A stretch of 64,000 nucleotides of DNA from Symbiodinium natans (taxonomy: Eukaryota > Sar > Dinophyceae > Suessiales > Symbiodiniaceae). The position numbers and the translations under genes are program-made. Location of the stretch: NCBI GenBank assembly GCA_905221605.1, contig CAJNDS010002404.1, positions 62,001 through 126,000 of the forward strand, written 5' to 3'. Within the stretch, counting starts at the first letter, position 1, and every line of letters begins with the position of its first letter. Under the pieces are notes generated by a model that ran no database searches, was not told the DNA's origin, and saw nothing but the letters and a program-made list of their open reading frames with translations. This document shows, in pieces, positions 2 through 19,000 of this stretch.

Positions 2-947
2 GCGGAGGAAGAGCTCTGGGGCTGGCCCTACGACCACTGGAGGCACAAAAAAGCCTTCGAAACCAAGGGCTTCAGGGGCTTCGGGTTTTAGGGTTTAGGG
101 TTTAGGGTTTATGGTTTGAAGGTTTAGGATTTAATTTTGAAGCTTTTCTGGGTTTAAGGTCTAGGGTTTGAAGGTTTCGGATTTAAACTTGAAGGGTTTG
201 GGGTTTGCAGGTTCACGGTTTTGAAGGTTAGGCTTTAAAGGCTTCGGCTTTGAAGGGTTTAGGGTTCGAATGTTAAGAGGTTAGGGTGTTAGGGCTTCAG
301 GGTTTAGGGTTTAGGGTAGTCACGTGGGCCCTTAATATGGTCCCTAACCTCCGTTAAAGGGTTGATGTACAGGCCCCTAGTTTGTATCGGGTATAGAAGG
401 GGTATATCAGGGGTACTCTTTTAAGGGCCCAGAGAAAGGGACCATGTAACGACCCGAGGGTACTGCTGTTTGGATCCTCCCAGGGGTCTGGGTAGGGAAA
501 AATTTGGGGTTTAGGGTTTAGGGTTTAGGGTTTAATTAGGGTTTAAGGTTTGGAGTGTAGGGTTGATGGTTTGCCTGGAGTCTTGGGGCGGGGGCTCGCT
601 TTTGCAAGGGGGCCCTGGGGATCCCTGTCGCCCCCGAAGAATTAGGGTTTAGGGTTTAGGGTTTAGGGTTTAGGGCCTAAACCCTAAACCTAGGTTAGGG
701 GTCACTTGCTGCCTTAGACAGTGTGCAGCCGGTGATGGTGTTTCATACAGCTACACTTCACACATTGCAACACACCCGAAGCCAAGCGTAAAACCCAAGC
801 CCTAGACCCGAAACCCCAAAATCCCGCCCCCCCGACAAAAGCCCTCAGACCTTCCCCGTCGTGGCGATGGAGATGCCCTTCCACGCGGCCGTCTTTGATG
901 CCTCGACGTGCCAGCAGTGGGATGCGATGGAGGCCCTAGCAATGTGG
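2..947 (+). CDS. exon-like segments of an unassigned gene, partial at window start
   Basis: Two open segments have the base composition of the real exons elsewhere in the window. The first (about 2-70) is cut by the window edge and reads as an acidic, aromatic-rich peptide (AEEELWGWPYDHWRHKKAF). The second (849-947) starts after a TCAG acceptor, reads with VAMEMPFHAAVFDAS near its start and AMEALAMW at its end, and stops at a GC-type donor. Between them lie degenerate TTTAGGG-derived DNA and unique sequence. I do not recognise the protein. They could be part of the same large gene as the ketosynthase exons downstream, since strand and intron style match, but no motif ties them together. Confidence 0.4.
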
Positions 948-2197
948 GCTTAGGTTCGAAGTTCGGAGCTTCAGGATATCTGATATCTAAGGGTTTTAGG
1001 GTGTAGGGTTTGGGGTTTAGGGTTTAGGGTTTAGGGGAAGCCCCGAAAAAATACACCAACAACACTCTTAGTGCCCCTGTAACCCTACAGGCCCGACACA
1101 TCCCGACACTTTTGTGGAAACTGCGGACAACTCGATTCAGGGCGCCCCTCCACCGAGGGGACGATAAATTTCCAGGGGGGGGGCTTTGGACAGGGCAAAC
1201 CTACAGCTTTATAAGCCTTCAAGCCCGCACACCCCTAAACCCAAACTCCCACACCCTGAACCTCTCAATGAATCTTTAAACCCTCAACCATTTAAACCTT
1301 AAGCCCCTCACACCACGAATCCTAAACCCCTTCAAACCGTTTCAACCCAAACAACATCCCTGAACCCTCAACCGTAAAACCAAACCCTAAGCCTCAATCC
1401 CCAATCTCCCTGAACCTTTGAAGACCCGGTAAACCTCAAGCACAGTTTCCCCCAAAAAAATCCCTTGCAAGCTTTTAAAGCACCAAACCCTAAACCCTAC
1501 ACCCAAGTATGGGCTTAGGGTTTAAGGTTTTGGGCTCTTGCAAGCTTTAAAGCCATTAGCATCACTCCTGGCGATGAGCTCTAAACCCTAAACCCCAAAT
1601 CCTAAACCCTAAACCCCAAATCCTAAACCCTAAACCCTAAACCTCTAATCTCTATAAGCCCTAGACATCCCGACAGTCCGATGAGCCTTATCAGCCTGCT
1701 GCCTAGGGTTCCAAGTACGGGCCCTTAATTTGGGCCCCTGTTCTATAAACCCTCAACCCTAAACCTATAACTCTTATATACACTATACATAGTAAGGGCC
1801 CATACTTCGGATCCTAGAACAAGGCTCAGGGACCATACTAGGTTCCAACCTTAGAGGCTGGACCTTAAAGTTTAGGGTTTAGGGTTTGGTTTGGGGTTTG
1901 GGGTGTAAGGCCTTACCTTGAACCGATCAACGCCCCTGTCCTCCGACTTGGGAAGGCGGCGTGCAAAGAAACCCGGCTCTTCAGCAGTAAGATTGATTGT
2001 TGCAGTTGTATGGTGTCTGTACCCTAAACCCTAAAAACCCGAAACCCTAAACCCTAACCCAACAAGTATCCCAGAGCTTCCCAAAACCCCTTCGCGAAGG
2101 AGAGCTGTTCCCCCCAGATCACCATGGAGACCTCAATAGAATAATTTGAGCTCCCTAACGGCATTGGGGCGAGGAAAGAGGGGGGAAAGGGGCTGAG

Positions 2198-2228
2198 GCG
2201 GGGGGGGGGGGGGGGGGGGGGGGGGGGG
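2198..2228. repeat. poly-G run of about 30
   Basis: A long G homopolymer next to telomeric repeats. Length is unreliable in sequencing, and it can form G-quadruplexes. Confidence 0.95.
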
Positions 2229-2376
2229 AAAGCCGCCAAAGCCCCGACAAGCAATCAACCCTAAGCCCTAAACCCTAAAACCCTAAACCCCTTTAACCCT
2301 TAAACCCTAAACCCTAAAACCCTAAACCCTCAAACCCTAAACCCTAAACCCTCAACCCAACGCCCCGAAAAAGCAG

Positions 2377-2885
2377 CCGAGGATGGCTACCGGCTCGAAG
2401 GCGAAGGCGACACCGACCTCACCCGGATCCACCTGAAGCTGGGTCAGGAGCAGCTCCTGGGCCCGTTTAGGGTTTAGGGTTTAGGGTTTGGGGTTTGGGG
2501 TTTAGGGTTTAGGCTTCAAGAGGATCCTTTTCTTAGAGTCATCTACTTGCCTCAGGCCCCATTAGTCTGAAGGCTACTATTTTAAAGGAGGGTTAATCCT
2601 GCAAAGGGAAAAAAACATGAAGGCGGGTTAAAGGGTACCTGCTTCCTTCATACCCTATTGCTTGAAGGCAATTTTAATTGAAGGCTACTCTTTGTTAAGA
2701 GGGTTTATCCTTTCAAAGGTGTATAGAAAGGAGGGGTATAGGGTACCTATACAGGTACCTAAACCCTAAACCCTAAACCCTAAACCCCAAACCCTAAACC
2801 CTAAACCCTATTCCTTCTTAAAAGGGGATAAACCAGGCTCGGTTCCGAATGGCTGCCTTGGGAAGCACTGGCCCGGAAGCCCAGG
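2377..2885 (+). CDS. two phase-compatible exons, unassigned protein
   Basis: Exon 2377-2464 follows a GCAG acceptor, reads EDGYRLEGEGDTDLTRIHLK and onward, and ends two bases into a codon exactly where GTTTAGGG begins. Exon 2837-2885 follows an AG, supplies the missing base and continues open (LGSEWLPWEALARKPR), then ends before GTTTTG. The intron between them (2465-2836) starts directly with TTTAGGG units and ends with a CCCTAAA tract at about 2760-2812, some 25 nt before the acceptor. Function unknown; the phase match is what supports joining them. Confidence 0.45.
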
Positions 2886-2918
2886 GTTTTGTCCTTCCTC
2901 TAGAAGGTCCTTAAAGCA

Positions 2919-2983
2919 GGGTTTAGGGTTTAGGGTTTAGGGTTTAGGGTTTAGGGTTTAGGGTTTAGGGTTTAGGGTTTAGG
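2919..2983 (+). repeat. (TTTAGGG)9 tract
   Basis: Perfect plant-type telomeric heptamer tract, about 35 nt into the intron that follows the 2837-2885 exon. Confidence 0.97.
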
Positions 2984-3667
2984 TACCTGTATATTGTCCT
3001 CCCTTATTGGGGAGTAGGATTTTGGAGGGGTGTAGGGTTCAGAGCTGTAGCGGTGTGGGTGTTTATACTATTGCTTCCCCTTGTTGGGCTTTTAGGGTTT
3101 AGGGTATTGGGGTTTTATGCTTAGGCCCTTTTGCAAGGGTTTTGTGTTTGTTCCTTGTACTGGGGTGTTAGGGTTGCGGGTAGTGGGGCTTAGTAGAGGG
3201 TTTTGGGTTGAGGGTACTGGTGTTTAAGAGGGTCTTATTCGGGGTACCTCGCTCGGCTTGGCGAGGGAATCTCGCTGGGTTTAGGGTTCATGTCCCAAGA
3301 GATCTTGCGATACTGCGCACCCCAAACCCCTGAACCCTAAACCCTAAACCCTAAACCCTTCTGGGCCTTCAAAATCCTACGGGCCCCAAGTCCCTGAACC
3401 CCGGTCTTTCCCGAACCGCCCACGAAACCGCTCCAACTCCTAAAGCCCCGAACGCCCTAAGCCTCTCCATCCCAAAACCTGCAGTCCAAAACCGGTTTAG
3501 GGTTTAGGGTTTAGGGTTTTCCCTATATAAACCCTAAACTGTAAGGCTTCACAGGGATCCTAAACCCATCTGAAGCCCCTCCAACCCCCCCCCCCCTCCA
3601 AAGCAAAAGGAACCTTAACTCCCTATATCAAGGACCTGTAACTAGAAAGGCCGTTGGGATATTTCGT

Positions 3668-3911
3668 ATTTTCCCTTGTTGGGTTTTAAGAGGATCATAT
3701 CTAGGCATACTTTCCCTTATTGGGGTTAAGAGGAATATATTTAGGTATATTTGCCCTTAATGGGTTTAAGAGGATCATACTTAGGTATATTTGCCCTTAT
3801 TGGGTTTCAGAGCAATATATTGAGGCATACTTGCCCTTATTGGGCTTAAGCGGATCATATTTAGGCATACTTTCCCTTATTGGGTTTAAGCGGATCACAT
3901 TTCGCATGTTT
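3668..3911. repeat. 40-bp tandem repeat, about six copies
   Basis: Units share TTCCCTTATTGGGTTTAAG followed by GGATCATA and TTTAGGCATA variants, with a 40-bp period. The ORF across it encodes the repeated GGIYLGIFALNG-like peptide only as a by-product. A single related unit occurs at about 23,166-23,203. It lies inside an intron of the 5' exon series. Confidence 0.9.
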
Positions 3912-4135
3912 TTTCAGAGGGCTTCAGGGGCCATCCTGGCACCTGAAATCACACCGCACCTGCTCCCCTTACTGAGATGTAGGAATATGTTTTTCAGAGA
4001 GGTTTTAAGGGCCACCCTAGTTCAAGAAAAGCCCTAAACCCCCAAAACCCCCAAAAACCTTCAATTCTAGAGTCAGACCCTAAACCCGAAACCCTAAACC
4101 CTAAACCCCAAAGAAAGCAAGAGAATAACGCCAAG

Positions 4136-5040
4136 GTAGGGGTCCCGCAGAAGGAGGTGGTGGCAGTCCTTGCGCTTCAAGCCGATTGCCTAGGGCCAGT
4201 TTAGGGGGACAGTGCTTGGGGTTTAGGGTTTAGCGTTTAGGGTTTGGGGTTTAGGGTTTAGGGTTTAGGGCTTAGGGCTTAGGGTTTAGGGTTTAGGGTT
4301 TAGGGTTTAGGGCCAGGGCTTTGGGTTTTTTTTTTATGGGATTAACAGTCCGAGGTAGAACTTCTAGACTTTTGGGGTTTAGGGTTTAGTGTTCAGCGTC
4401 AGGGTTTAGGGTTCAAGGAGGGGGGGTGGGGTTGTAGCGCAGTTTTGGGCTTTGAGCGTTCAAGGAGTGGGGGGGGGGTTGAGGGTTGTGGGGCGGGGTT
4501 AGGGCATGAGGGTTGATAGGGGCTTTAGGGTTCAGGGATTTAGGGTTTAGGCCTTTTTGGGGAGCTTTACGAGAGGAGTATAAGGTGCCGAAACCCTAAA
4601 CCCTAAACCCCTATTCTTGGAAGATCAAGGCCTCCTTTCTCATGATTTCCGACGGCTACGGCTGGATTGCCGCCGTGCTTCTGATGGAGGGGGGTGACCT
4701 GCTGGCCAGCACAGCCTTCGTGAATGAGGCGCACGAGGGTTTAGGGTTTAGGGTTTAGGGTTTAGGGTTTAGGGTTTAGGGGCACGGGCATCACTCACCC
4801 TGTAGGGATTCCATGGCGGGCTTCCTTTTCAGTAGGGCTAGAAGTATGGTTTGCGCCAGTTATAAAACTCCAGCTAACCTACTTATGCAAACTCAAACCC
4901 TAAACCCTAAACCCTAAACCCTAAACCCTAAACCCTAAACCCTAAACCCTAAACCCTAAACCCTAAACCCTGAACCCTACCATGTAGAAGTTTTGGAAAT
5001 TCCCCGGGCGCCTGGACCTCGTGCGCAAATACCCGCGGCC
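4136..5040 (+). CDS. three-exon run, unassigned protein
   Basis: Exon 4136-4198 (VGVPQKEVVAVLALQADCLG) ends in phase 0 before GTTTAGGG. Exon 4624-4738 carries a hydrophobic stretch (SFLMISDGYGWIAAVLLMEG) and ends at a TTTAGGG tract. Exon about 4988-5036 reads KFWKFPGRLDLVRKYPR. Frame 4136 to 4624 is continuous. The join to 4988 works in phase 0 only if the donor is GG or lies one or two repeat units inside the array, so that boundary is uncertain. I do not recognise the family. The two introns are the clearest examples of TTTAGGG at the donor and CCCTAAA near the acceptor. Confidence 0.5.
4739..4987 (+). repeat. intron with TTTAGGG at its 5' end and CCCTAAA at its 3' end
   Basis: The intron opens with about six TTTAGGG units at the donor (4739-4781) and closes with about eleven CCCTAAA units (4894-4971), 16 nt before the acceptor AG. 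The two arms can pair over 40 nt or more with a loop of about 110 nt. This is the cleanest telomeric inverted repeat in the window. Confidence 0.9.
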
Positions 5041-5289
5041 CTAAACCTGCTCCGTAAGAGCTAAACCATCAACCCCCTGTTTTTCTTTTTCTTCGGGTTT
5101 AGGCACCCTTTTCATTCCTAGGTTACTCAGAGAGCCCAACACCCCTTTACAGTTAAGGAATGTACCTTGAACTATATAGGGATCCCTTCATATGATTTAA
5201 GGTACATTCCTTGTTTAACTGGTATTGGGCTCTTTGGGCTCTTTGGGTACTCTTGGGTCTAGAGAAGCCCTACACCCTTTCCTCCTCAG

Positions 5290-5736
5290 GGAAGCGGTCA
5301 GCTGCGGTTCCGGAGCATGGTGTTTTCCAGCTCTCTGCGTGTGAAGTCCTGGGAGGACTCCAGTTTAAGGGTATGCGGCTTAGGGTTTCGGGTGTAAAGT
5401 CGTAAGGGTTTGAGGACTGAGGGCGGAAGTTTCTTAGGCATTAAGGATTACGGATGAGAAAGGGTTCAGAGCTTCAGGGCCTTGGAGCTCCAGGCAAACA
5501 AGACTAACGCCCCAAACCAAAGCTCCAAACCCTACTTGGAGGTTCATGGTACTTATTAACCAATTATACCTGTACTTAATAACCCAAATTGTAGCCACCA
5601 TATTAGGGCACTGAAGGGGCTGCGTACAGGAACTCCAGCGTCTTCGCCCCGACTTTGCAGCGGCAATGGCGGCACCCGCGTCGGCGCGGTGGGGACAGCG
5701 CGACGCCTCGTGCGAAAGGGGCTCTCTTACTTGAAG
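5290..5736 (+). CDS. two exon-like segments, unassigned protein
   Basis: The segment 5290-5370 (acceptor CTCAG, donor GTATGC) reads 27 codons including LRFRSMVFSSSLRVKSWEDS. The segment 5661-5736 (acceptor TTTGCAG, donor GTTCGA) reads GNGGTRVGAVGTARRLVRKG and ends LSYLK. The phases of the two do not match directly, so a small exon may be missing between them or one end is misplaced. Part of the intervening DNA is a short dispersed repeat (see 5541-5610). Function unknown. Confidence 0.45.
5541..5610. mobile_element. partial relative of the 13.2-kb TIR element
   Basis: Shares GGAGGTTCATGGTACTTATT and TGTACTTAATAACC with 13161-13285. The right terminus is not clear. Confidence 0.45.
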
Positions 5737-5765
5737 GTTCGAGCCCAAAATGGTAGATTTCTTTC

Positions 5766-6855
5766 TATAGGGGTTTCCGAAAGTAAGGGGTGCCGTTTTG
5801 GGGGGTCCCTGTGAAGGGGATTCTATTCTATTTGGGGTATAAATCCGGTACCCCTATTTTGGGAAATACCCTTATAGGAGGAAGCCCCGAAATATTTTAC
5901 CCGAAGACAGGGTGCAACCTCATCAAGGGCTTCGGGTCGTGCGGCTTTGGGGCTTCGTGGGCACGTACATCCCCCCCCCGCCTGAAGGAGACAAGAACAT
6001 CTTGCATGTGGGCAGTTCTCGATATTAGGGTCCCTTTGGGGGCTTCCTGTTTATTGGGTGCCTGTACCCCAACAGGCACCCAAATTGGGGGCTGTGGAGA
6101 AAAGACTCAAAGCACCGTAGCACTCTTTGCCCGGAACTTTGGGCCCCCAGACCCTTGAACCCTTGAACCCTAAACCCTTGAGACGCCGAAGCCCGGAAGT
6201 CCTAGAAATCCCAAAAAAACCCTAAAACATCCCAAAGCACCCAAAGCGGATCCGCCCCCCAAGGAAGCAGAGGAGGCGGAGGAGGCTGCAGTGAAAAGCC
6301 TCGGGCCTCTGCGCATTGCAAGCTACTTGGCGCAGTTGGGTTTAGGGTTTAGGGTTTAGGGTTTAGGGGTTTAGGGGTTTAGGGGTTTCGGGGTTTAGGG
6401 GTTTAGGGGTTTAGGGGTTTAGGGGTTTAGGGGTTTAGGGGTTTAGGGGTTTAGGGGTTTAGGGGTTTAGGGGTTTAGGGTGTAGGCGGGTTGCTGCAAT
6501 GCTCTTGATGCAGTCTCTTATGTACCTGTCGATGATTGCGAAAATACTTGGCCCCCCATTATTCCCCCCAAAGGGTAGGATTCCGTTGTAAGAAGGGCCC
6601 CAAGAAGGTACCCCTATTTTCGGCATGTCGGCTTGTATCCGAAAGAACCTCTGCTTCTTCAGTCTTCAATGTCGCACCTGATGTGCTTGGTAGTCTTGCG
6701 CGGACAGTTTTATGGTGAGGTTGGTTAGTCATTCGGGGGTTAACATATGGAGGTTTACGAAAATGGGGCCCCCAAGATTGATCTCCAAATACTAGGGTTC
6801 CCTTATAACAAGGACCCCGATGAGGTACCGCTAATTTCGAAAACCCCCCCATACT
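5766..6855. mobile_element. three copies of a short dispersed element (MGVSENRG-type)
   Basis: Copy A at 5766-5880 (+), copy B at 6546-6627 (-), copy C at 6748-6852 (-). They share GGGTTTCCGAAA, AGGGGTACC, GGGGGGTCC, then a run giving ATTCTATTTGGGG. Further copies are at 17,890-17,985 (-) and 26,187-26,281 (-). Read from the conserved end, the element opens with MGVSENRG or close relatives, a peptide start I recall as common in gene models of Symbiodiniaceae. At about 100 bp with no coding capacity it looks like a MITE or SINE-like element. Confidence 0.7.
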
Positions 6856-6979
6856 TCGAGGGTTTAGGGTTTAGGGTTTAGGGTTTAGGGTTGAGAGCAC
6901 AAGTCAAGGTCCAGACATAGGCGTTAGCGGCCACTGGACTTGCGGGATCGTGCTGAGAGACTGGAGGCCAGCGAACAAG
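6264..6979 (+). CDS. two phase-compatible exons, unassigned protein
   Basis: Exon 6264-6339 begins with a Glu/Ala-rich run and continues AVKSLGPLRIASYLAQL; it ends one base into a codon at GTTTAGGG. Exon 6915 to about 6979 supplies two bases, making Asp, and continues IGVSGHWTCGIVLRDWRPAN. The 575-nt intron contains the TTTAGGGG array and copies B and C of a short dispersed element. The protein is not recognised; the joined frame is open and the phases agree. Confidence 0.5.
6340..6483 (+). repeat. TTTAGGG tract turning into a TTTAGGGG array
   Basis: Four TTTAGGG units at a donor site pass into about 15 copies of the octamer TTTAGGGG, one of which reads TTTCGGGG. No other tract in the window has this octamer in bulk. 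Confidence 0.95.
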
Positions 6980-7845
6980 CTTCAGGAATCCCAAAATTCC
7001 AGGGGTTAGGGGGCGTAGGGTTTAGGGTTTAGGGTTTAGGGGTTGAGGGATTAACCCGAAGAAGTAGAGACGCTCGTCCCTTGCCGCGCACACTGGGCAT
7101 GGTGTTTTTTCCAGTGCGTGGTTCAGGGGAGGTGACCCGGACCCGTACGCTTAGCGCTCGCAAGCGTCCGCTACCGTCCGCGAGGGTTCGCCAGCTTTCA
7201 TTTGTGATCAAACTCGTGAAGGTCGTCGCTTTGGGCGGCTTTTGAGGTCATTCTAAGCTTCGAAGGTCAGAGGCGCGTCGAAGTCGGCATCCTCGCATCT
7301 CTCGTCACTGTTTGCAACTTTGGCGAAGTTCCAAAATGCAACAGCGCCGACAGCTACGAGGATGTCGAGCATCGGAGTCGTCATCCTCGTGCCTGTCAAA
7401 GATCGACGCAGTCTCCAGGATCATGAGCGTCAATGTCGCCATCCTCGAAGTTGTCGTCAAGGCTTCTTAGAAGCTTCGCGTGCCAAAACTGCTGACGATC
7501 ACAAGGATCGTGACGGCAGGTGGCTCGTGCCAGCGGTTAATCAAGTCTTCGCGTGGGAACTCACGCTGCGACGTCGAGACGCACTCGTGTGTCGTCATCG
7601 TGCTGCCTCTCACGTGAATTATCTCCATTCGGGCGTGTGGCCTCTATCAAGTTTTAGTGTCGAGAGCTCTTTTGAGGCAGGGGATCACGGGCATGATCGC
7701 ACCGGTAGGCTCTGAGCAGGGCAGGGGCGACTGATTACCCCAGATCACCCCCCCCGTTGCACCACAAGGCCACCCTTTCAAAACCCTAAACCCTAAACCC
7801 TAAACCCTGAACCTTTGGCTGAGAGTTCCAAAAAAAATCTCGCAG

Positions 7846-8993
7846 GCAGAAGCTTGGGGAGGAGGACCCGTTCAATCCGCGTTACACGGGCCTGGAGGGC
7901 TGGCCTGCAAAGATCTTCACCAGACATCTGGGCAAGGAGCTTTGGATGACAATTTTGGGGGGATCCCTTTTTCCTTCTTCGGGTTTAGGGTTTAGGGTTT
8001 AGGGTTTCCTGAGCTGGGTTTTTCGGATTGTGGGGGGGGGGGGAGGGGTTGGGGCTTCCCGGCCTTACTACACCTGAAGAAGCCTTGCACCACGGGTCCC
8101 CCAAGCCCTAAACCCAAAGCCCAAGAACAAATTCTTAAAGAACTCTGACGGGCGTTTCCAAAAGTAGGGTCACCCCTTCCCTACACCCCCAATGACCTAT
8201 CATATGGGTTCTGGGGTCTAGGGCTTAAGGGGAAACCACAAGAGGGCGCTTCCGATCCCTTTATACGAAACCAATATTCAAGAGGGGCGCCAGGGTGTAG
8301 GGTTTAGGGTCCGTAAAAACCTAAACCCTACATTCTGAATGAATTGGGGGGAGACCTTGAAGCCCAAATCGGTTGGGGTTCTGGGACCCCAAACCCTAAA
8401 CCCCAAACCCCAAACCCTAAACCCTAAACCCCAAACCCTAAACCCTAAACCCCAAACCCTAAACCCTAAACCGGCCAGATGCCCCCCGACTTTCTGGCTG
8501 CGCTGCGAGCTGCGAATGACGAGGCCGAGCGCTGGAACCAGGCCACCTTGATGGGTTTAGGGTTTAGGGTTTTAGGGCTTTAGGGTTTAGGCTTGAGGGT
8601 TCAGGGCTTAGGGTTGAGGGTTTAGGGCTTAGGGTGGAGGGTTTAGGGCTTAGGGTTGAGGGTTTAGGGGTTAGGGTCGAACCTTCAGTGCGGGCTTTTG
8701 ATATCGGGCTTCGCGGGCTTCTTTGCATGGGGTTTTCATAAGGTGTCCCTGAACCCGAAGCCCTAAACCCTAAGCTTTGAGGGTCTTTGGGCTTCGGGGC
8801 TTCAGCTGTGCCAGGGCTTTAGGGGTCACTGGGTGTCCTAAACCCTAAACCCTAAACCCTAAACCCTAAACCCTAAACCCTAAACCCTAAACCCTAAACC
8901 TGTTGGAGCACCAGGTTGTCAACGAAGTGGACCAGATGTGTGGGGACCCTGAGATGCCCTTCAAAGGACCCCTGGCTCTTCTTGGAGAAGGGG
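7846..8993 (+). CDS. three exons, unassigned protein
   Basis: Exon 7846-7982 (acceptor TCTCGCAG) reads QKLGEEDPFNPRYTGLEGWP and onward to about HLGKELW; its 3' end may lie earlier, because the frame stays open until GTTTAGGG. Exon 8479-8554 reads MPPDFLAALRAANDEAERWN. Exon 8909-8993 reads HQVVNEVDQMCGDPEMPFKG. Upstream of 8479 and of 8909 the intron ends in CCCTAAA/CCCCAAA tracts; downstream of 7982 and 8554 it begins with TTTAGGG. Phases fit only if the donor sits at GG or inside the repeats, so ends are approximate. The methionine at 8479 need not be a start. Function unknown. Confidence 0.5.
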
Positions 8994-9048
8994 GTTTCGG
9001 GTTTAGGGTTTAGGGTTTAGGGTTTAGGGTTTAGGGTTTAGGGTTTGG
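8838..9048. repeat. CCCTAAA array and TTTAGGG array on either side of an exon
   Basis: About nine CCCTAAA units (8838-8900) precede the exon at 8909-8993, and about six TTTAGGG units (about 9000-9048) follow it. On the + strand the exon is flanked by C-rich repeats upstream and G-rich repeats downstream. Confidence 0.95.
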
Positions 9049-9613
9049 AGAGTTATCAGGTTTAAACCACAAGAATCCACAGACGGTGCCAGTGGCGTGT
9101 CAGGTACCCCCATGGCCCTCCCAGGGCGAACAGTCCCAGCGCCCTCGAAACGGTAGCTTGCATTCGCACACGGTCGTTCTCCGTGCCTGGTTTTCAGCCT
9201 GTTTGGAGCCTCTTCTGGGGGGAGCTCGAGTTTCGTTTGGAAAGTTTCCTGGCGGAGAAGGTTCGGCCGGTTTGTGGGGGGAGGGGGGGGTGGTTCCGCC
9301 CTACAAAAATCTGCCTCAATGAATGCAAAGAAGCACGGCGCTGCACCTTCACATCCCGAAACCCGAAACAGTCCTGCTCTGCAAATCCCAAATCCCCCTA
9401 AGGTCAAGGTTCGGAGGTTTTCGTTTGGAAAGGGGGGGGGGGGGGGTGGGGGGCACGCCTAAGTCAGTGTCCACATTCCCTGCGTCAACGATGCCTCGCA
9501 CCCACTCAGCATGCATGGCCGTAAGATTTTGAGGAATCTCATGGGGCTGAAGCAAAATGTTCCAACCACCCGTCTTTTCTTGCTTACTGCCGACCTAGCT
9601 GCCCATTTGCAAG

Positions 9614-10868
9614 CATGGCGTGCGCAGCTTGGAGGCCGGAGAGCTTGTCATCTTTAAGGCTTCCCCTCAGCTGCACAACTCAGCGTCCTGAGGACAGTGA
9701 CCTTTTGGAATCACACCTCAGCAAACTCGTGCCGCTGAGTCCACAACGCGAAGAAAATCTGCAAACGCAATCTCTGCTCAGCACTGGCATTGCTCTATAG
9801 CTGTTGTTAGCAAGGGGTCCCAAATGAAAGATTTAACGCGAGCTTCGTCAAAGACGAACCGCACGGAGAAAAGAATGCACGGACCAAACTGGCTGCGCTT
9901 CTGTGATGCCCTGGGACGCCTTGCGAATCGCTGTCCCAGGCAAATGGTACATCCTAAACCCTAAACGGTATATTGGGGGTTGGGGAGACCCCTCCTGACC
10001 CGCTGTCATTTGTGGCACTTCAGCCTCGGGCGTCTGGGGCTGAGGATTCGAGCCTTTGGTGCAGTTCCCCCACACTTAAAGGCATAGAGTTTTAGGGATA
10101 GAGGTACATGAAAGGGGGTTTAGAGCCAGTTTCAACCATCATTCGTCTGCCTCCAGAAGCCCCAGCTGGAACTGACCATGGATCTCCGATCTCATGGTTT
10201 AGGGCTTTTGAAACCCTAAACCCTAAACCCTAAATTTTGCCCGCAAGCCGTTGACAGCTGCCCTAAGGCCCCTAAAGCCCTAGTAGTAGAGTAGGTAACC
10301 TTTAACCTTTTTAGGGTAGTATAGTTCCCTTATAATCCCGAAGGTTAACCTGTAATTCCCCCAGGTTAATGGACAACTAGGAAACCCTGCTCTCAATACA
10401 CTCAAGTGGCGAGCCAAGGCAGGGGCGGCAGAGGCAAGGGTAAGAACAGATGCTCGGCTCTGCAGTTCAGGTTGTTGTTGGCTTCTGGGCGGTTTTTGAT
10501 AGCAGAATTCCCCCCCCTCAAAAGGTATATCAGGAGGGGTGCTGAAGATCAGATAGTCCCCTGCTGCGTGGTGCTTTTGTCTCTAGATGACCTTTCAGGT
10601 AGTACCCTAGACACTATCCCTTTTTGTCACCCCAAGCTCTCAACCCCTAAACAAGCCCTAACACCTGGCACCCTAACCCTAAACCCTACACCCTACACCC
10701 TAAACCCTAAACCCTACACCGGAAATCCTAAGCCCTAAACCCTAAACCCTAAGCCCAGCAACCGCCAAAGCCCAGGAGCAGTGAGCTGCAAGCAACCCTT
10801 CTCCACCGCAGTCCAGGAGTTACGTACCCGGCTGTCCGGGTCCCCCAAGCTCTCTGTCTGTTTTGGGG
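9614..10868 (+). CDS. short exon-like segments, unassigned protein
   Basis: Three short segments fit the local exon style: 9614-9658 (HGVRSLEAGELVIFK, donor GC), 10157-10196 (KPQLELTMDLRSH, donor GTTTAGGG) and 10812-10868 (QELRTRLSGSPKLSVCFG, donor GTTTAGGG). The middle one is followed by a possible miniature intron of about 55 nt (10,197-10,251) that contains one TTTAGGG and three CCCTAAA units and ends in CGCAAG. No domain is recognised. Each is short enough that some could be chance. Confidence 0.35.
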
Positions 10869-11396
10869 GTTTAGGGTTTAGGGTTTAGCGTTTAGGCTTA
10901 GGGTTTAGGGTTTTCGGGGAGGGGGGGGGGGTTCGTAAGGTTGAACCCTAAACCTTAAAACAGAAACCTAAACTTATCAGGGTTGAGTCTAGGGTTTCTG
11001 GCATAGGGTTTCTGGTGCCTAAGCCCGAAACCTCAAATTTTAAAGATTCTGGGGGGGTGCCTTTTGCGGGTTCGGGATGAGCACTAATAAATGACTTTAA
11101 AGCCCGAGGGTACCAGGGCCCTGATAGGGAGCTAAAGGATGAGTTAGTTTGGGTTGACAGTTTTGCGGGCTTAAGGACTAGGGGGTTTCGGGTTTAGAGT
11201 TCGTTTGGAATTTGCTTGGGGGGGGGGAGGAGGGGTGGAGGAGGGGGGTGTTAGGATTCGTGGTTTGGGGTTCAGGGTGCTCCAAGGGTAGTTGTAATTA
11301 TGGGCCTTAGGTTGGTTTAGAGTATAGAAGGCGTCCTAAACCCTAAACCCTAAACCCTAAACCCCCCTTTTAAGGGCACCACGTCACTACCCCAAG

Positions 11397-12808
11397 GTTT
11401 GACCGAGCAGTGGCAGCGCTGGAAGACCTGGCCTCACCAGACTCGCAGTCCTACAACCTGGGGCACCCTGGCAGGGTTTAGGGTTTCGGGTTTCGGTTTT
11501 AGGGTTTAGGGTTTAGGGTTTCGGGTTTAGGGTTGCCCGTCTTCTTCTTGTATCAGGGTTCCCATACTACCCCACCCCCCCTCTGTACTACCCGCCCCCC
11601 CCCACCCCCAAGGTTTTTTCCAGAAGTTAAGGCTATACTTGGGGTAGTAGGGTTTTTTTCATGATTGCCGGGTTTCGGGTTTCGGGTTTCAGTGGCAAAG
11701 GGTCACCCCTCTCCACCACAACTTGCGCATGCCTCAAGTAAAGATCGGAGAGGCTCTCCGCAGGTCTGTGCATAGTGCTTCAGGGTTTAGGGTTTACTGG
11801 GGGTTGAGGGGGTTTCAGTGGCTCTGTGACAAAAAGGGTTCCGACCATCCTACGGCCCAGTTCAGATTGAGGAGTTCAGAGTTTTAGGTTTCTAGGGTTT
11901 GGGAGTTTAAAGTTTTAGGGGGTTTGGGGCCTAGGGGCTCAAGTTGGGCCGCGATCCAGTGCAACGGGAAGCTCGCTTTGTGTATGCGACTTCGGCCAGC
12001 GATGCTTAATCTCTTCCTCATGAACCCTCTCAAAACGATACCGATGCTAGTGCCATTTGCTTAAGAGCCCCCCTAAAGAATATCTAATATCAGCTGACAA
12101 TGGCCCTTATAAGGAAGTTTTGTTTTTGTTTTTTTGAGATTCTTAAGCAAATAGTAGATGATCGGTGTATGTATAACATAGTAGGTGCTAGTTTCTGTAG
12201 AGTAGAGTGTATAAGCTGGGATGTTCCCCCTATACTTGCAGTCCTTAATAGGGATGATAGTACCCCCGATTTCAAGTACCCCCCTATGTCAATCAATCCC
12301 TATTAAGGTCTGTTAGTATAAGGGGGATCATCCCAAGGTGTAAGAGTTGAAAAACTCGGGGAGTGTTACAGCCTCTAGAGTTCGAGGCACCAGGTCATCA
12401 GGGCAAAAGGCTCGAGGTTGCAAGATGGACCCCACAACGGCACCGGAATCCAGAGAATTTAGTGTTTAGGGTTTAGGGTTTGGGGTTTAGGGTTTAGGGT
12501 TTAGGGTTTAGTCCTTGAAGAGCGGTTTTGTGCTGAACCCCCCCCCCCCCTCCGAACACTTCAAACACTAAACCGCCGCCCTCAGAAGCCCCAAGCCCAG
12601 AAACCCTACATGGTAACTTCTCGATATTACGGTCCCTTGTTTGGGGTTACTTCTTCAGGGTCCCTAACTTAGAGATCTAAACCCTAAACCCTAAACCCTA
12701 AACCCCCCTTCAACCGCTCCAGAATCCCAAAAACTCAGGACCCTTGCGGTTGCCGCCATGGAGTTCTTTGAGGTTGACTTGCTCTTTGGCCCAGGGCAAC
12801 GGGAGGCC
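11397..12808 (+). CDS. exon run just upstream of the ketosynthase exons
   Basis: Exon 11397-11475 reads FDRAVAALEDLASPDSQSYN and ends in phase 0. Exon 11693-11784 begins in phase 0 and reads WQRVTPLHHNLRMPQVKIGE. The intron between them (217 nt) is GT-AG and made largely of TTTAGGG and TTTCGGG units. Exon 12379-12461 reads FEAPGHQGKRLEVARWTPQR. Exon 12739 to about 12808 reads TLAVAAMEFFEVDLLFGPGQ. The last could be the KS N-terminal region around the usual MDPQ motif, but the match is weak. These are probably part of the same gene as the KS exons, by position and strand only. Confidence 0.45.
12218..12340. mobile_element. palindromic MITE-like element, copy 1
   Basis: Contains CCTTAATAGGGAT and, about 55 bp later, ATCCCTATTAAGG, with an outer CCCCC...GGGGG pair. 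It relates to copies at 13,615-13,715 and 16,797-16,895. No coding capacity. Confidence 0.65.
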
Positions 12809-13097
12809 TGGGGGGGGGGGGGGCAGGGCTGAGAGGGCTAAGGATTTTGGGGTTTCAGGTTCCGAGGATTTAAGGATGAAGGGTTTCTGAAAGGTTCTGA
12901 GGTGTTGAGGGCTTACGGCGGTTTAGGGTTCAGGGTGCTTTTTTGTTCGCTGACCGTTTAAGGGCCAAGGTTTCGAGATGGTGTGTTGAGAGTTTGGGGC
13001 TTAAGAGCTTCAGAGTTTTGGGAGTTCAAGATTTTTGGGGTTTAGGGCTTTGGCGTTTCCGTTGCCTGCAAAGTTTGCATATTGGTTTTCTGTCTAG

Positions 13098-16000
13098 CGC
13101 AACGTCAAGCGCAACGTGACCTCGGGAAGTATCTCTGGGATCCTTGAGCCCGACAACCCACGTGGAGGTTCAGGGGGTACTTCTGCCCCCAGTTATTCGT
13201 CTACTTAATAACCTACGAAGAGGACTTAGGGGCCTTCCAAGAGCAGTTAGAACTGCGGTTATAAGTGCCCATGAACCTCCAAGCAGGACCCCAGTGGCGG
13301 CCCTCTTGCAGTTTCGGGTTTGGGGGGTTTGAAGTTCAAGGGCTTTAGGGGTGTCGAAGATATGTGCTGTGAGGTTCCCTTACAAAACCGCCAGGTAAAC
13401 AAAGATAGGCTGCGCCCTGACTGGAAATCATGGGTTTTGAAGTACGATACTTCAATACTTTTTGTTGATTCTGGGTTCCCATTTTTGCTACTTAGAATCT
13501 GTTCAGCCCTGACACCGAAACCCCCAAGCCCCCTTGAGAGAAGACCCCGAAGACTAAAGCCCCCAAACCCTACACGCCCTCAAACCCCAAGAGACTTCGA
13601 GACCCTAAACTTGGAATGCTCCCGCTTATACGAACAGTCCTTACTAGGGATTCTAGTACCCCCTACTAGAATCACTACGAAGGACTCGTAGTATAAAGGG
13701 GAACAGCCCAACCCCTAAACCCTAAACCCTAAACCCTAAACCCTGAACCCTGAACCCTAACACCAATTGCAGGTCATGTATGACACCTGGGCTGCCGCAC
13801 AAGCTTCCCAAGCTGCCAAGACTGCCGCCACTGAGGGCTACACATCCCATTCCTAGGACTGGCTTCGGGTTAGGGTTTTATCATTTCGGGTTTTGAGTTC
13901 GGTACTTTAATTGAATCATAGTCAAAACCCCTACTTTAACTCAAGGCATGTGTCATAAATCACATCAAGATGCTCACCCTAAGCCCTAAAGCCTGGAAAC
14001 TCCAGCTGCCTCGCGTCATTTTGAGTCCTTGTCTGCGGCGACAGGAAAAGCGGCGACCGGCATCAATAGTTCCTTCCCCTCTCTGCTGTATTCAACCGCC
14101 CCAATAGATACAAAGCAGTCGTGAACAGTATCAAGAAAATGTCGTGTATAAATGTAGATGTACACATGTATGTATGTGCACACACACACACACAGCCGGT
14201 ATTTTAAAGATGACTACGTTCACATGTCTGGGGTTCAAGGGTTGCGGAAGGTGCAAACAGAGGATGAAAACCGTTGCTCTAACCCTAAACCCTAAACCCT
14301 TAACCCTAAACCCTAAGCCCTAAGCCCTAAGCCCTAAACCCTAAGCCCTGTGTGTGTATGACGGTCATGGCTCTCTGAAAGAAGGTGCGGGCTTTTAAGG
14401 CCGAGGGATCCAGGGAACTGAGGTATGGTTTCCGCAGCCTAAGCCCGAAACCCCGTAAAAAAGCAAACAGACTGTCCGTTGGGTTTAGGGTTTAGGGTTT
14501 GGGGTTTAGGGTTTAGGGTTTAGGGTTTGGGGTTTAGGGTTTAGGGTTTAGGGTTTAGGGTTTAGGGTTTAGGGTTTAGTTGGGGGTTTAGGGTTTGGGG
14601 TGTTGGGGCAAGGAACTTGAGTAGTTCTATTGAGAATAACAGGGTAATCCGCGTGTACTTACCTGGCGGTTTCCGACATTCGCGGTACCTTACTGGGGTC
14701 CTTATGATAAGGGGATGCCACTACTTGGGGTTTGTACTGCAGGTCCCTTATTTTCGTAGCCCTAAACCCTAAACCCTAGCCCTACACCCTAAACCCGAAA
14801 CCCCTGCCTAAACAGTGAGCCAGGCAGCCATCTGCGGCGGGGTGTTCCTGCAGATGTCGCCGTTCATGTGGCCGGTGCCCCCAGTCGCTGGCGCAAGCTT
14901 AACCCAGACAAGGGTTGAGGGATTTAGGGGTGTAGGGTTTAGGGTTTAGGTTTTTTGTGTCTTGGGTCTTGGGTGTAGGGTTTAGGGGTTTGGGGTGGTT
15001 GGGGGTTTAAGGCTTTAGGGTGTATTTGGGCTCCACACTGAACCACATGTCGAAGGCGAAGGCCTAGACCCTAAAACTTTCAGCCTCCATCTCTAGCAAA
15101 CTCGAGTCACCCTCAAGCCGAAACCCTAAACCCTACAACCCTAAACAGACTGAGGCCACGGTTCAATGCCTACATGAACCCTGCGGGCAGATGCTTTTCC
15201 TTCGATCAGGCAGAGGGTACCCTTTCTCCTTTTGTTAGGGTGGGGGGGGGTTCAAGGTTCCCGTACAGAGTGTCCAACTTAGAAAAACAGGTGCCCTTAT
15301 TACAAGATGGTTGCTGGGCGACCAAGTTGGAAGCCCTTTAGACTTAGCAAGTAGGGTTGGTAAGGTGGGGTGATGAGGGGATACTAAGTAGGCTTACTCA
15401 GTAGGGTTTAGGGTTTAGGGTTTAGGGTTTAGGGTTTGGGGTTTAGGGTTTAGGGTTTAGGTTTAGGGTTTAGGGTTTGGGGTTTAGGGTTTAGGGTTTA
15501 GGGGGGCCTTGAGGACCTTTCAGCAAAAGAAGGGGCAGCTTCGGGATTCGAATAGGGTTGAGGCTTCAAACTTAGGGAACCCTCCAAGGGATCCTTGCCT
15601 GAAGTACTGAGTTTAGAGTTTAGGGTTTAGGGTTTAGGGTTTAGGGTTTAGTGGGAGTTTAGGGTTTCAGCGGGCTCTTCAAAGAGATTGTGGGGTATGT
15701 TGCATTATTATTCGTGTAGAACCCCAGGTTTTCCCAGGATTGCACTTCATCGCTTCTGAGAAAAGCTCTCCTGCTCCCAACACGTGAGGCCGCCAACGGC
15801 TACGTGCGCGGCGAATGCTGTGCCAGCGTTGGGGGCCCCAGACCTTCAAAAAGGATGCCAGAACTACCCTACACCCTACGCCCTAAGCCCTAAACCACCA
15901 CAACTGAAGACATTTTTCACCTCCAAGGCAGCTCTGAAGCCGTATGCCGAGAAGGTCGACAACCAGCTGCTGGTCGTGGACGCGCCTGTCCTAGGCCCAT

Positions 16001-19000
16001 GGGGGGGAAAGAGGATTACTGAAGGGCTTTAGGGTCTTCCGATGAGGGCGTTTTGGTGTAGTTTCTCTCGTACTGCTTGAAGAGACAAAGTCTTCCTGAA
16101 CCACTTGGGCTCCTGCATGTCCAAGCATCTTGCAAGATGCGGCCCTCGCCTTCGGCAAGGTTATGCTGGGATCGGGGGTGCGATTGTCTTCCATCCAATA
16201 CTTCCCCCCCCCTCAACTGCTTGAAACTCCCAGAATCTGGCTTCAGGCATGATTTCTCAGCGGTGATGTCTTGATATCAGGTGGACCAAACCCGAAGCCT
16301 TGAAACTGCGGTCGCAGGTACCCTCGTCGGCTGGCGCATGACGCGCCTTCGCTGCAGATAGCGCGGAGAGGATTTAGGGTTTAGGGGTAAAACCGGAGCC
16401 GATATGAGTACCCATTATCCCCTTGTAATCACCTGCTTACACAGGAAACGCACTGCCAGGTTCAACCAGAACTGCAAACCCAAAACCTTTCAGGAAAGCC
16501 ACATGACCAGGACCCCAACGTTAACCTCACTTTCCCTTTCCGGGGCTTGTTCCCCTGGTGTTACTGGAGAACCTACGGAACGCCCTTGAAGTAAATTGCA
16601 GAATGCTACCATCCCCTGCTAGATTTACATGATCTGTACTATAGTTCAAGGTGTGCTCCTTAGATCTGGTATGTCTCAAATAGCGTAACCCGAATAGACC
16701 CCCTAAAATGCTTCAAGGTTATCCCCAAATTTTGGGCAACCTTTACACCCTAAACCCAATGTACCCTCAACCCTAAACCTTGAACCCTAAACCTTGGCAT
16801 GTTCCCCCCTAAAACTAAGAGTCCTTAATAGGGATTATAGTAGGGGGTTGCTATAATCCCTATTAAGGAGCTGTTAGCTTCAGGGGAAACATCCGAACCT
16901 GAACCCCATGTAGGCCCATGCAGTCTTGGGGTTTTACCCTAAACCCTAAACCCTAAACCCTAAACCCTAAACCTTTTGATCGAGGAACAACGGGCGCAGC
17001 GCGGGCCTGGCGGCACCCAGTGGACCTGCCGAGCAGGAGGCCGGGGGCACCAGCCAGGGCTAAAGGGCTGTGCATGGCTTTTTGTGGCTTAGGTGTGGGG
17101 TTTAGGGCTTAGGGCTTAGGGTTTAGGGTTTAGGGTTTAGGGTTTAGGGTTTGGGAGTCCGCGGGTATGGAGCGCAGGGGCCTGTTTGATGTTTCGGGTG
17201 CGGGGTTCAAGAGTTTTCGAGGTACATAGCGACTTCTCTCTACAGCAAGTCTTGGTTCGTTTTGTGGGTCCTCCTGAAATATAGGAGCATTGCAATCGTG
17301 TGTGCATGTGTAAATATGTGCTCTGGTATGATGCCAGATCATTTCAGATCATATGATATGCGGATGGGAAAGGAACACAGGCGCGTGGCACATGCATATG
17401 CGTATACATATTATGTGTATGCTCACGTGAGATGTAGATGCAGAGCTCTCTGGGGCTCTTTGCATACAGGATGGCGTTCTTAAGGGTCCTATCTTTCGGG
17501 TATGGCGTTTGAGGCAGCCAACGGCTTCGGAAGGGTTTTAGGGTTTAGGGTTTAGGGTTTAGGGTTTAGGGTTTAGGGTTTAGGGTTTAGGGTTTAGGTC
17601 GGGTGCGCCGAAGGGTGGGCTAAATCCGGGTCTGACTAGACGATGCTTGTGGTTGACATGCTATGGCTCTGGGTATGCAAGGGACATCTCTGAAGTAGGC
17701 TCTCCAACAGCACTAGGATGTCAAGTTTCTGTGCCTGCTTCCCTGAAAGCATGATACCTCTGGCACGATGAAACCGGGAGCTTTTGCTCTCTAAACCCCC
17801 ACGCCCCGGGTTGATTTGGACCAAACGTTGAATTTTCACGGCGAGAACCCTACATGGAATTTCCAGAATGTTTATCTGGGCATGTCCAAACATAGGGGGT
17901 GCCCCCCTTATATGCCCCAAATAGAATAGAGTCCCTTTACAGGGACCCCCAAAAAGAGTACCCCTATTTTCAGAAACCCCCATATGAACCCTGAGCCCTA
18001 AAACCCCAATTCCCGAAGCAAGCCCCTCCCGAAGCCGCCAAGAAAGGCCATCGCCGACTGCGTCCGACATGCCGGCATCTCGCCTTTGGACGTCGATGCT
18101 ATGGAGTCTGCCTGGCCACGCTTCAAGGAAATGCTTTACAGGGTTCTTAACCGGGGGGGGGGTTCAAGGGAGGTATGTAACCGAAGGTTCCCTCATACTC
18201 CCCACCAATACTCCCACACCCCCCACACCCCCCCCCCTTAAGAACCCTCTAAGAATTCGCAGGATCTGGTTCGGTGCCGAAGAGGAACGTTTGCACTTTG
18301 CCATCGCTATACATGACCAGGAATAAAGTTTCGTCGCTCTTGACAAGACAAAGTTGACTTAGGACAGCGGAGTACTGCATCATGGTTGTGTCCTAGCCTG
18401 GCGAGCGGAGGAACTACTTCACCAGAATACACTTATACTATTCTTACTGTTACGGAGGAGGACCCGCCGCTCTTGGAGCGCAGGAGTCTATGGGGGAGAA
18501 GGGGTCTTCTGCTGTCTTCGTGTGTTACGATGTGAGTGCGACGAACTTTCGGCCTGCCGCAGCATGCGTTGGGGGAGCACTGGTCTTGCCGAAACTTCCA
18601 AAAGGGTTTCTGGTGAGACAGTGTGACGATCGAACGAGAGAGGCAAGGGGAGGACTTGCGCCGAAAGCGCCGCAGACACAAGCAGAAATCGTCACATGGG
18701 TCCTGGACGCCAGATTTGTTAATGGAAACGGCGAGGAGCAGCATGCCTTGGGGAGACGTTGTGAGTGCGACGAACTTTCGGCCTGCCGCAGTAGAGCCCT
18801 GACTGTAAGTGATTCTTGGAACGGTTGCAAGGTGCAAGCCATGTACTGGTGAGCTCTCAAGCTCTGAATCCGTCAACACCTAGAACCTAGATCCTTTAAG
18901 CCCGCAAGCCTGAAGCTTCAAACTAACACAACCCTAAATCCGAAACCCTAGCCCTAAACCCTAAACCCCCTGTTCAACACATGGGCCAGGTGTCATGCTG

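Follow-up and report, generated by a model that had tools for sequence, protein, structure and literature searches.

Arrays of the telomeric unit TTTAGGG and its reverse complement CCCTAAA are abundant in the introns of a dinoflagellate locus that is not situated at a chromosome end, which raises the question of whether these arrays belong to the introns in which they lie or to the short exons between them. The locus is a 64-kb stretch of nuclear DNA from Symbiodinium natans (hereafter, the window), corresponding to positions 62,001–126,000 of a 443,579-base contig. In total, 262 TTTAGGG and 198 CCCTAAA units were found, where the dinucleotide composition of the window predicts approximately 10 and 7, and most lay in positions 1–31,600 (248 and 178, respectively, vs. 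14 and 20 in positions 31,601–64,000). How tiny exons with non-canonical donors are recognized in dinoflagellates is unsettled in the literature surveyed.

Gene models and splice borders

The introns of two genes, A and B (Table 1), were mapped by protein homology, which yielded 45 introns at first and then 70 (44 retained and 26 placed with the aid of fetched upstream DNA). The introns of gene A were placed by splice-aware alignment to P0001, and its upstream part was aligned to P0014. Gene A is a separate gene, and its homologs P0014 and P0016 are transcript-like; P0014 was 54% identical to it, with 13 of 17 junctions gapless and 3 to 8 of 8 residues alike. Upstream of these it has earlier introns and its 5′ exons, some of which fall outside the window. 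Three of the four introns that P0014 placed upstream of position 933 were added, one of them at 43–848 and another spanning the window start, and the first (contig position 60,095) was left out. For gene B, the Pfam domain Ketoacyl-synt_C was found in P0001, and the stop codon follows position 29574; P0002 was 92% identical. In the fetched upstream DNA, 23 of the 36 introns placed with P0002 were counted, starting at contig position 36,558, beyond which the alignment was near-identical. Four introns at the start of the first alignment (353–841) were dropped for mismatched residues, and the intron 13824–14823 was dropped because P0001 falsely joins genes A and B there.

Table 1. Genes, arm-bearing cassettes and an armless exon in the window
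Feature	Position	Strand	C-arm	Exon	G-arm	Remarks
Gene A	933–13772	+				17 introns and exons between; first intron 933–1955, last 12806–13772
Gene B	14824–29574	+				3′ half of ketosynthase (polyketide synthase-like) gene; 27 introns, 14871–15154 to 29208–29520
Third gene, part	33010–34846	+				P0006 alignment, 149/221 residues identical
Cassette	2266–2507	+	2266–2348	2382–2452	2466–2507	
Cassette	2764–2977	+	2764–2805	2837–2870	2922–2977	
Cassette	8394–8669	+	8394–8470	8479–8541	8556–8669	
Best cassette	8840–9046	+	8840–8894	8915–8966	8992–9046	Arms complementary at 54/55
Cassette	10645–10910	+	10645–10746	10776–10848	10870–10910	
Cassette	11341–11532	+	11341–11361	11397–11462	11477–11532	
Cassette	16937–17149	+	16937–16971	16985–17039	17101–17149	
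Cassette	20936–21296	+	20936–20977	21032–21075	21120–21296	
Cassette	25229–25445	+	25229–25270	25327–25381	25432–25445	
Cassette	28301–28599	+	28301–28409	28464–28517	28543–28599	
Armless exon, gene B	24534–24599	+		24534–24599		Example, well supported; no arm on either side

The median exon and intron lengths of genes A and B were 45 and 552 nt, respectively. Donors among the 70 introns were GC (52), GA (10) and GT (8), and all acceptors were AG, where the aligner permitted only GT/GC/GA–AG borders and the residues of gene B matched P0002 gaplessly across 26 of 27 junctions. With these borders and a conserved frame joined across them, the introns are of the dinoflagellate spliceosomal type. 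According to the original prediction, most introns take their GT donor from the repeat; this is wrong, as none of the 70 started with GTTTAGGG. The borders that it gave for seven introns were not confirmed: every donor had been placed 10–46 nt too far downstream, and three of the acceptors were exact, three were 6 nt off and one was 302 nt off.

As an internal contrast, the two best-supported introns of the third gene, 33249–33400 (GT donor) and 33442–33629 (GC donor), carried no telomeric array, with a lone CCCTAAA at 33308. No match was obtained for the window against Rfam at gathering scores, for exon pieces taken before the gene was known against Pfam, or for a 201-base piece against phage records.

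Telomeric arms and the exons between them

The orientation of the units depended strongly on their position in the intron. Among the 45 introns first mapped, the TTTAGGG:CCCTAAA ratio was 131:6 in the first 150 nt and 28:102 in the last 150 nt (permutation test of orientation against position, p = 1e-5, the lowest value attainable), and among the 70 introns it was 222:14 and 51:187, respectively. Counted by majority per intron (n = 70), the 5′ end was G-type in 44, C-type in 3 and tied in 23, and the 3′ end was C-type in 38, G-type in 12 and tied in 20. The orientation asymmetry at both intron ends that had been reported from at least seven introns is thus real, in two genes rather than genome-wide by annotation. 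The first TTTAGGG started at a median of 42.5 nt past the donor (46 of 70 introns with a unit within 150 nt), and the last CCCTAAA ended at a median of 33 nt ahead of the acceptor (41 of 70). Of the 19 introns with a CCCTAAA array there, 17 had CTAAA at a distance of 12–60 nt to the acceptor, as the telomeric repeat itself entails.

Viewed from the exon, these arrays form a C-arm, (CCCTAAA)n, upstream and a G-arm, (TTTAGGG)n, downstream, so that the unit layout is (CCCTAAA)n, ~33 nt, an exon of ~45 nt, ~42 nt and (TTTAGGG)n (Table 1). An annotated exon lay inside 28 of the 41 C-to-G gaps of ≤260 nt, vs. 1 of the 18 G-to-C gaps of 80–250 nt; 13 of the 41 had no listed exon, and one of these 13 does contain a gene A exon placed with P0014. 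Arms bracketing many of the short exons are an architecture of genes A and B, of which we are highly confident, and the flanking of tiny exons by complementary repeat blocks indicates that the repeats belong to the exons rather than to the introns. Among 67 exons, 21 had neither arm and 18 had one arm only; since such exons are still joined in the proteins, the arms are not required in general.

The two arms of one exon occurred together. Pooled over both genes, the upstream C-arm predicted the downstream G-arm of the same exon (rho 0.61, n = 67), with an odds ratio (OR) of 9.0 (rows 21, 13 and 5, 28; p = 0.0001; 67 exons). In the window, the same-exon arm strengths were correlated at rho 0.64 (n = 42; p = 0.0003, the lowest value attainable by permutation; 0.68 in gene A and 0.53 in gene B), vs. 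between −0.15 and 0.19 at all other lags from −6 to +7 at the same 100-nt setting; at a 50-nt setting, rho dropped to 0.27, and the coupling was absent in gene B (−0.16). Complementary arms around one exon were also found together out of sample, in 23 introns and 22 new exons of the ketosynthase 5′ half (rho 0.46, p = 0.016; OR 11, p = 0.026), where the within-intron OR was 0.7. The coupling persisted when exon length (partial rho 0.59) or flanking intron length (0.51) was accounted for.

Within a single intron, in contrast, the presence of an arm at one end was independent of that at the other (OR 1.1, p = 1, n = 70; window rho 0.05). By length, within-intron rho was −0.22 below 350 nt (n = 19), 0.29 at 350–600 nt (p = 0.20, n = 22) and −0.36 in longer introns (p = 0.05, n = 29). 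In introns of 200–350 nt, where the arms are separated by about the same distance as across exons, coupling was absent (rho −0.15, n = 16); distance alone as its cause is not supported, on only these 16 introns. Where both arms were present, their lengths were unmatched (rho 0.17, p = 0.17, 70 pairs; 0.21, p = 0.19, 41 cassettes). The relation of the arms to donor class was weak: G-arm strength was 50 at GC-donor vs. 7 at GT-donor exons (p = 0.02, one of several tests, uncorrected), with no difference in C-arm strength by donor class (p = 0.17) or in arms between GC and GA donors (p = 0.15).

Explanations for exon-bracketing arms

The best explanation, with a probability of about 0.45, is that the arms contribute to the definition of short exons whose GC donors are weak, perhaps through cross-exon pairing. 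We infer that the arms function in splicing. They would act at the exon level: in the pre-mRNA, complementary arms could close a loop of ~140 nt around the exon, and this loop would mark the exon as a single unit and unite its two weak splice sites, mostly with GC donors, for exon definition. Telomeric sequence would be an abundant repeat that was available to the genome and was retained in the working orientation. Selection in splicing at the level of the exon is probable, and cross-exon pairing as the way in which the arms work is close to an even bet. Inverted telomeric blocks around exons could be a new way to mark exons for splicing. The earlier idea that telomere-type DNA aids splicing is possible, with the exon rather than the intron as the unit.

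Pairing was assessed by predicted duplexes and folds. In the window, the duplex energy across an arm's own exon was −76.5, vs. −66.1 (sd 2.2) with shuffled partners, and the out-of-sample test gave p = 0.06. Folds were predicted for the 21 RNAs with both arms among 47 whose two introns sum to ≤1,700 nt. In these selected RNAs, 1186 of 3150 donor-side nucleotides were predicted to pair across the exon and 122 with the 3′ end of their own intron, so the donor-side 150 nt favoured cross-exon pairing approximately tenfold, a preference that depends on distance in addition to sequence; in 3 of these folds, no donor-side nucleotide paired across the exon. A point against the reading is that, in animals, an exon between stable complementary flanks can be skipped or circularised; complementary intronic repeats flanking an exon can promote circular RNA.

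A somewhat unlikely alternative is that the arms are separate strand-specific enhancers that never pair. UUUAGGG, an element of the UAGGG/GGG type, would act close to the donor, and CCCUAAA, which is C-rich and resembles a branch site, close to the acceptor; both would be needed by weak exons and neither by strong ones, so that the arms would be coupled through the exon. The proximity of both arms to splice sites, their independence within introns and their unmatched lengths agree with this, as do human intronic G-rich and C-rich enhancers, which offset weak sites (PMC2481429). It leaves the exact reverse complementarity unexplained, save that one repeat is at hand, and own-exon partners out-paired shuffled ones in the window, although coupled presence alone could yield that result.

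Rather less probable is a single DNA-level event that placed the repeat on both sides of the exon, by telomerase-like addition to both ends of a fragment carrying the exon or by fold-back copying of one arm, with no role in splicing. Both flanks, when read outward, consist mostly of TTTAGGG, as at two chromosome ends, the rule is strand-symmetric, and the mirror symmetry of the cassette around exon 2837–2870 extends beyond its arms, with a 16-nt run common to the outer flanks. However, this was the one clear mirrored outer flank among 41 cassettes (a second, of 12 nt, was telomere-like), the mean did not exceed that of shuffled flanks (p = 0.48), mirrored interruptions in the arms were absent (p = 0.19, 70 pairs), and such an event gives no reason for centring on exons. 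Fold-back copying was thus unsupported in general by the outer flanks and the arm interruptions.

Microsatellite drift with purifying selection, in which arrays arise everywhere in either orientation and those making decoy sites (TTTAG|G before the real acceptor) are removed without any positive role, is improbable. TTTAGGG is indeed rare immediately upstream of acceptors, and the telomeric 21-mer is equally common on the two strands of the 759-Mb genome (1,185,204 vs. 1,184,385 copies), but neither the near-absence of CCCTAAA after donors (14 vs. 222 units) nor the coupling across exons is explained.

The two readings that take the intron as the unit are very improbable. The pairing of arms across the intron, which in the original prediction brought both its splice sites together, fits arm orientation and position, but complementary arms did not occur together in one intron, no length class among the 70 introns showed significant positive coupling, and own intron ends paired no better than ends from different introns (p = 0.64, n = 39; new introns, p = 0.49). 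The proposed introner made of telomeric repeat would be a transposable element whose terminal inverted repeats (TIRs) are telomeric and which inserted and became each intron. Introners with TIRs and TSDs are known in dinoflagellates, including Symbiodinium microadriaticum (PMC9860276), where low-complexity families were removed as possible microsatellite expansions. The reading fails here on the independence of the arms of one intron, on boundary direct repeats beyond the splice consensus (3–5 nt in the Farhat definition), which showed no excess (2.77 nt on average vs. 2.75 nt; n = 44, p = 0.43), on inverted repeats of 8–20 nt within 30 nt of both ends (an 8-nt repeat in 3 of 44 introns vs. 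2.1 expected from unrelated introns) and on sequence, as none of the 44 introns were alike over near-full length and masking left three short similarities (23, 62 and 26 nt), none in the 31.6–64 kb part.

Known systems and genome-wide distribution

Introners as defined in Amoebophrya, and searched for in Prorocentrum and Suessiales, have inverted repeats of 8–20 nt and direct repeats of 3–5 nt near intron ends (PMC7789003, PMC10666404, PMC10522408). They are likewise from a dinoflagellate, with inverted repeats near both intron ends, non-canonical donors and proposed hairpins, whereas the S. natans arms are telomeric, are coupled across exons rather than introns and lack a direct-repeat excess. 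Introners described as DNA transposons (PMC9860276) share the terminal inverted arrangement if it is viewed by intron, but the 44 S. natans introns show no similar family or TSD signal. Alu pairs, which alter splicing as complementary repeats in exon-flanking introns, also place reverse-complementary repeats on either side of an exon (PMC2533698), whereas the S. natans repeats are telomeric heptamers, mostly in one orientation, around very short exons, tens of nucleotides from splice sites and common genome-wide. The G-rich and C-rich intronic enhancers of PMC2481429 similarly lie near weak splice sites, but both are upstream of one intron's polypyrimidine tract, whereas the S. natans arms lie in two introns, flank the exon and are reverse complements. 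Repeat-made stems proposed to aid splicing of large introns fold the intron (PMC2773006), whereas the proposed S. natans stem would enclose the exon. In euglenid nonconventional introns, secondary structure near the intron ends unites them and the borders are variable (PMC4770533), whereas the modelled S. natans introns have G(C/T/A)–AG borders, and within-intron pairing is not favoured.

Telomeric arrays were present in stretches of several contigs. In the genome, C-to-G matches with a gap of 110–140 nt outnumbered G-to-C matches (257,542 vs. 75,755), counts that include overlapping starts within one array and are not locus numbers; at 400–430 nt, the retrieved DNA had 23 and 19, respectively. 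On other contigs, gaps within 80–200 nt made up 26 of 36 C-to-G vs. 12 of 31 G-to-C cases (p = 0.007), and the GC content of the gap centres was 0.612 (n = 26) vs. 0.531 (n = 12; p = 0.002). The C-to-G centres are thus exon-like in GC content (mean exon GC 0.608), and G-to-G gaps of 80–200 nt were also fairly high (0.589, n = 9). On another contig, six pieces that were located by their arms and picked visually for an open frame had no Pfam match, so only their spacing, GC content and open frames speak for these cassettes being exons.

A genome-wide exon-definition code is a more tentative extension of the exon-definition reading: by folding the pre-mRNA into loops that each carry an exon, complementary arms might allow very short GC-donor exons to be found among long introns, and such loops could also give rise to exon circles or protect exons while they are transcribed. 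If true, a genome-scale repeat flanking exons on both sides would be a direct handle readable from DNA alone and may aid exon prediction, telomeric sequence would have been recruited for gene expression at a great many places in the genome, and inverted-repeat introner screens in dinoflagellates may be counting exon flanks. The telomeric 21-mer was also carried by 22 IMG/VR loci, which were counted for orientation only.

Gene models and telomeric units at intron ends

A protein query built from exon-like pieces of the window found P0001, listed as the 839-aa PpsA (ppsA) protein of Symbiodinium natans, which the + strand of the window matches piece by piece. Residues 55–419 of this record correspond to a separate gene with its own homologs (gene A). 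Residues 420–839 come from a ketosynthase gene, of which they represent the 3' half (gene B), and are 92% identical to P0002, a 926-aa record taken as a transcript because its source contigs are at most 2,902 nt long. The public P0001 seems to be gene A fused to the ketosynthase 3' half, without the ketosynthase 5' half. Gene A lies on the same strand between the ketosynthase exons for P0002 residues up to ~503 and from ~506; unless the region is mis-assembled, the whole multi-exon gene A appears to sit inside one ~18 kb ketosynthase intron. Other ketosynthase-like sites in the genome (several on C2141, and others on C22, C2006, and C1502) match P0002 in long open frames, so these copies look intron-poor at the matched place.

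Introns were placed by splice-aware alignment of P0001 against the window, with GT, GC, or GA allowed as the donor and AG as the acceptor. The alignment yielded 49 introns, of which 45 were usable and 44 were retained after one false join was dropped. In gene B, 26 of 27 junctions were gapless in P0002, with 7 or 8 of 8 residues matching, and in gene A, 13 of 17 were gapless in the more distant P0014, with 3 to 8 of 8 residues matching. Upstream DNA of the contig (C2092) added 23 well-aligned ketosynthase introns guided by P0002 and three gene A introns guided by P0014. The donors of all 70 introns were GC (52), GA (10), and GT (8).

The first 150 nt of the 70 introns contained 222 TTTAGGG and 14 CCCTAAA units and the last 150 nt contained 51 and 187, respectively, in agreement with the original observation that TTTAGGG lies toward the 5' end and CCCTAAA toward the 3' end. 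In the window, the density of units in the expected orientation was highest 20–80 nt from either splice site, with an equal fall-off on both sides, and no complete unit was found in the 2,305 exonic bases checked. The borders proposed for seven individual introns held only in part: three of the seven acceptors were exact, and all seven donors were wrong. The repeat itself, which had been thought to supply the donor in most of them, does not do so, since none of the 70 introns starts with GTTTAGGG.

Features of the locus and related protein records
Feature	Coordinates	Description
P0001 counterpart	window 10–29574	
Gene A between ketosynthase exons	C2092:58737–76823; window 1–14823	
Rejected intron	window 13824–14823	false join of genes A and B
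Exon with extended mirror symmetry	exon 2837–2870; window 2748–2993	symmetry extends beyond the arms; 16-nt common run including TATACAGGTACC / GGTACCTGTATA
Third gene	window 32140–34846	MGCGNSK-like start, VSHAWDEYYRDF motif, longer exons, no telomeric arrays; relative P0006 of Effrenium voratum
Run of 100 N	window 34288–34387	likely scaffold gap
GTC/GAC-type repeat	window 39339–40139	~0.8 kb; several frames open on both strands
Several alike reading frames	window 50164–52834	within 2.7 kb (e.g. PEASKAIPGTTRVKRSANARS); likely dispersed or local repeat
Ketosynthase intron	C2092:52650–57773	example with a short cassette and no mapped exon
P0014		gene A homolog; from 1,546-nt contig
P0015		gene A homolog; Symbiodinium sp. 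CCMP2592
P0016		gene A homolog; transcript record

Coupling of the arms across exons

A CCCTAAA array upstream of an exon is termed here a C-arm, a TTTAGGG array downstream of it a G-arm, and the two with their exon a cassette. Were each intron a unit, one would expect both of its arms to co-occur. No co-occurrence was found within introns (rho 0.05 in the window, pooled OR 1.1), nor any coupling within the 16 introns of 200–350 nt, and duplexes between the two ends of an intron had no advantage over shuffled partners, which argues against the arms pairing across the intron as originally predicted. In contrast, the two arms flanking the same exon, the C-arm before it and the G-arm after it (lag +1), were coupled in the window with a rho of 0.64 at the 100-nt setting, the remaining lags from −6 to +7 giving −0.15 to 0.19. 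Settings of 75 to 200 nt gave 0.58–0.65 at lag +1 and −0.19 to 0.34 at the remaining lags; at 50 nt, the coupling was weak (rho 0.27) and was absent in gene B. It persisted when exon and intron lengths were controlled.

The new ketosynthase introns, obtained once the hypothesis had already been formed, served as a replication set and showed coupling across exons (rho 0.46, p = 0.016; OR 11, p = 0.026), with an OR of 0.7 within introns. For all introns pooled, the across-exon OR was 9.0 (p = 0.0001). When measured as duplex energy, the effect across the exon was strong in the window; in the replication set it reached only marginal significance (p = 0.06). The unit carrying both arms is thus the exon, not the intron, in the two genes tested, whose models come from protein alignment rather than this strain's reads and whose borders were limited to G(T/C/A)-AG.

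Possible role and origin of the arms

We infer that the complementary arms may pair across the exon. Folds were predicted for the 21 intron-exon-intron RNAs with both arms among the 47 that were short enough; the donor-side 150 nt paired over 1186 nt across the exon, compared with 122 nt with the far end of the same intron and 808 nt elsewhere in it, a preference that reflects distance as well as sequence, and in 3 of the 21 folds donor-side pairing across the exon was zero. We think that such arms would assist exon definition where exons are short and weak. GC donors were weakly associated with stronger G-arms (p = 0.02, uncorrected; 50 versus 7, with only seven GT donors), which points in the same direction. 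Donor class was not linked to C-arm strength (p = 0.17), and G-arm strength did not differ between GC and GA donors (p = 0.15).

Arms acting as independent splicing enhancers, without pairing, fit nearly as well and have a precedent in human introns (PMC2481429). General fold-back copying is not supported, as mirrored interruptions were absent from the 70 arm pairs and the outer flanks were clearly mirrored in only 1 of 41 cassettes. An introner made of telomeric repeat, as first suggested, does not explain the pattern either, since the 44 window introns showed no direct-repeat excess at their borders, almost no similarity once masked, and only three cases with inverted repeats in the 30 nt at each end, which is the chance level.

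Excerpts of published work (PMC7789003, PMC11453091, PMC10666404, PMC10522408, PMC9860276, PMC11114475, PMC2481429, PMC8045281, PMC11508785, PMC2773006) describe introner elements that carry simple inverted repeats in the introns of dinoflagellates; they also deal with non-canonical donors and with telomeres of the TTTAGGG type. According to the methods of PMC8045281, Iso-Seq reads were used to guide the S. natans gene models. The stem 'telomer' is absent from the main text of PMC10666404, PMC10522408, PMC9860276, and PMC8045281. No description of telomeric repeats around exons was found in these excerpts or in the literature listings searched; two of the papers cite Roy et al. 2023 (Current Biology) on dinoflagellate introners. 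Repeats around exons are already known in principle, and Suessiales introner counts in print may include such exon-flanking arms; an exon-bracketing function, if real genome-wide, would be categorically new.

Telomeric arrays beyond the two genes

Telomeric arrays were distributed very unevenly among 15 other stretches of the S. natans genome (L031–L045): seven contained at least two arrays of at least two units (five rich, with L041 and L043 in between), and eight had no such array. Within the window, the median gap was 136.5 nt for C-to-G (n = 26) and 325 nt for G-to-C (n = 25); other loci gave medians of 140 nt (n = 44) and 240 nt (n = 39), respectively. On contigs other than C2092, gaps of 80–200 nt made up 26 of 36 in the C-to-G class and 12 of 31 in the G-to-C class. 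At their centres, the C-to-G gaps of this size had exon-like GC.

Across the genome (759,417,921 bases in 2543 contigs), CCCTAAACCCTAAA followed by TTTAGGGTTTAGGG at a gap of 110–140 nt gave 257,542 matches and the reverse order 75,755, both figures counting overlapping starts within arrays rather than loci; the backward-read control gave 0 for either order. At several of the match sites listed, AG followed by an open frame was seen by eye, uncounted. In the DNA stretches examined, the C-to-G excess was clearest at gaps of 110–200 nt. On other contigs, it was gone in the 300–330, 330–360, and 400–430 bins together (60 versus 68), the 400–430 bin by itself giving 18 C-to-G versus 7 G-to-C. Thirteen of the 41 short C-to-G cassettes enclosed no exon on the mapped list and may represent unannotated, alternative, or dead exons; one of the 13 encloses a gene A exon that was placed later via P0014.
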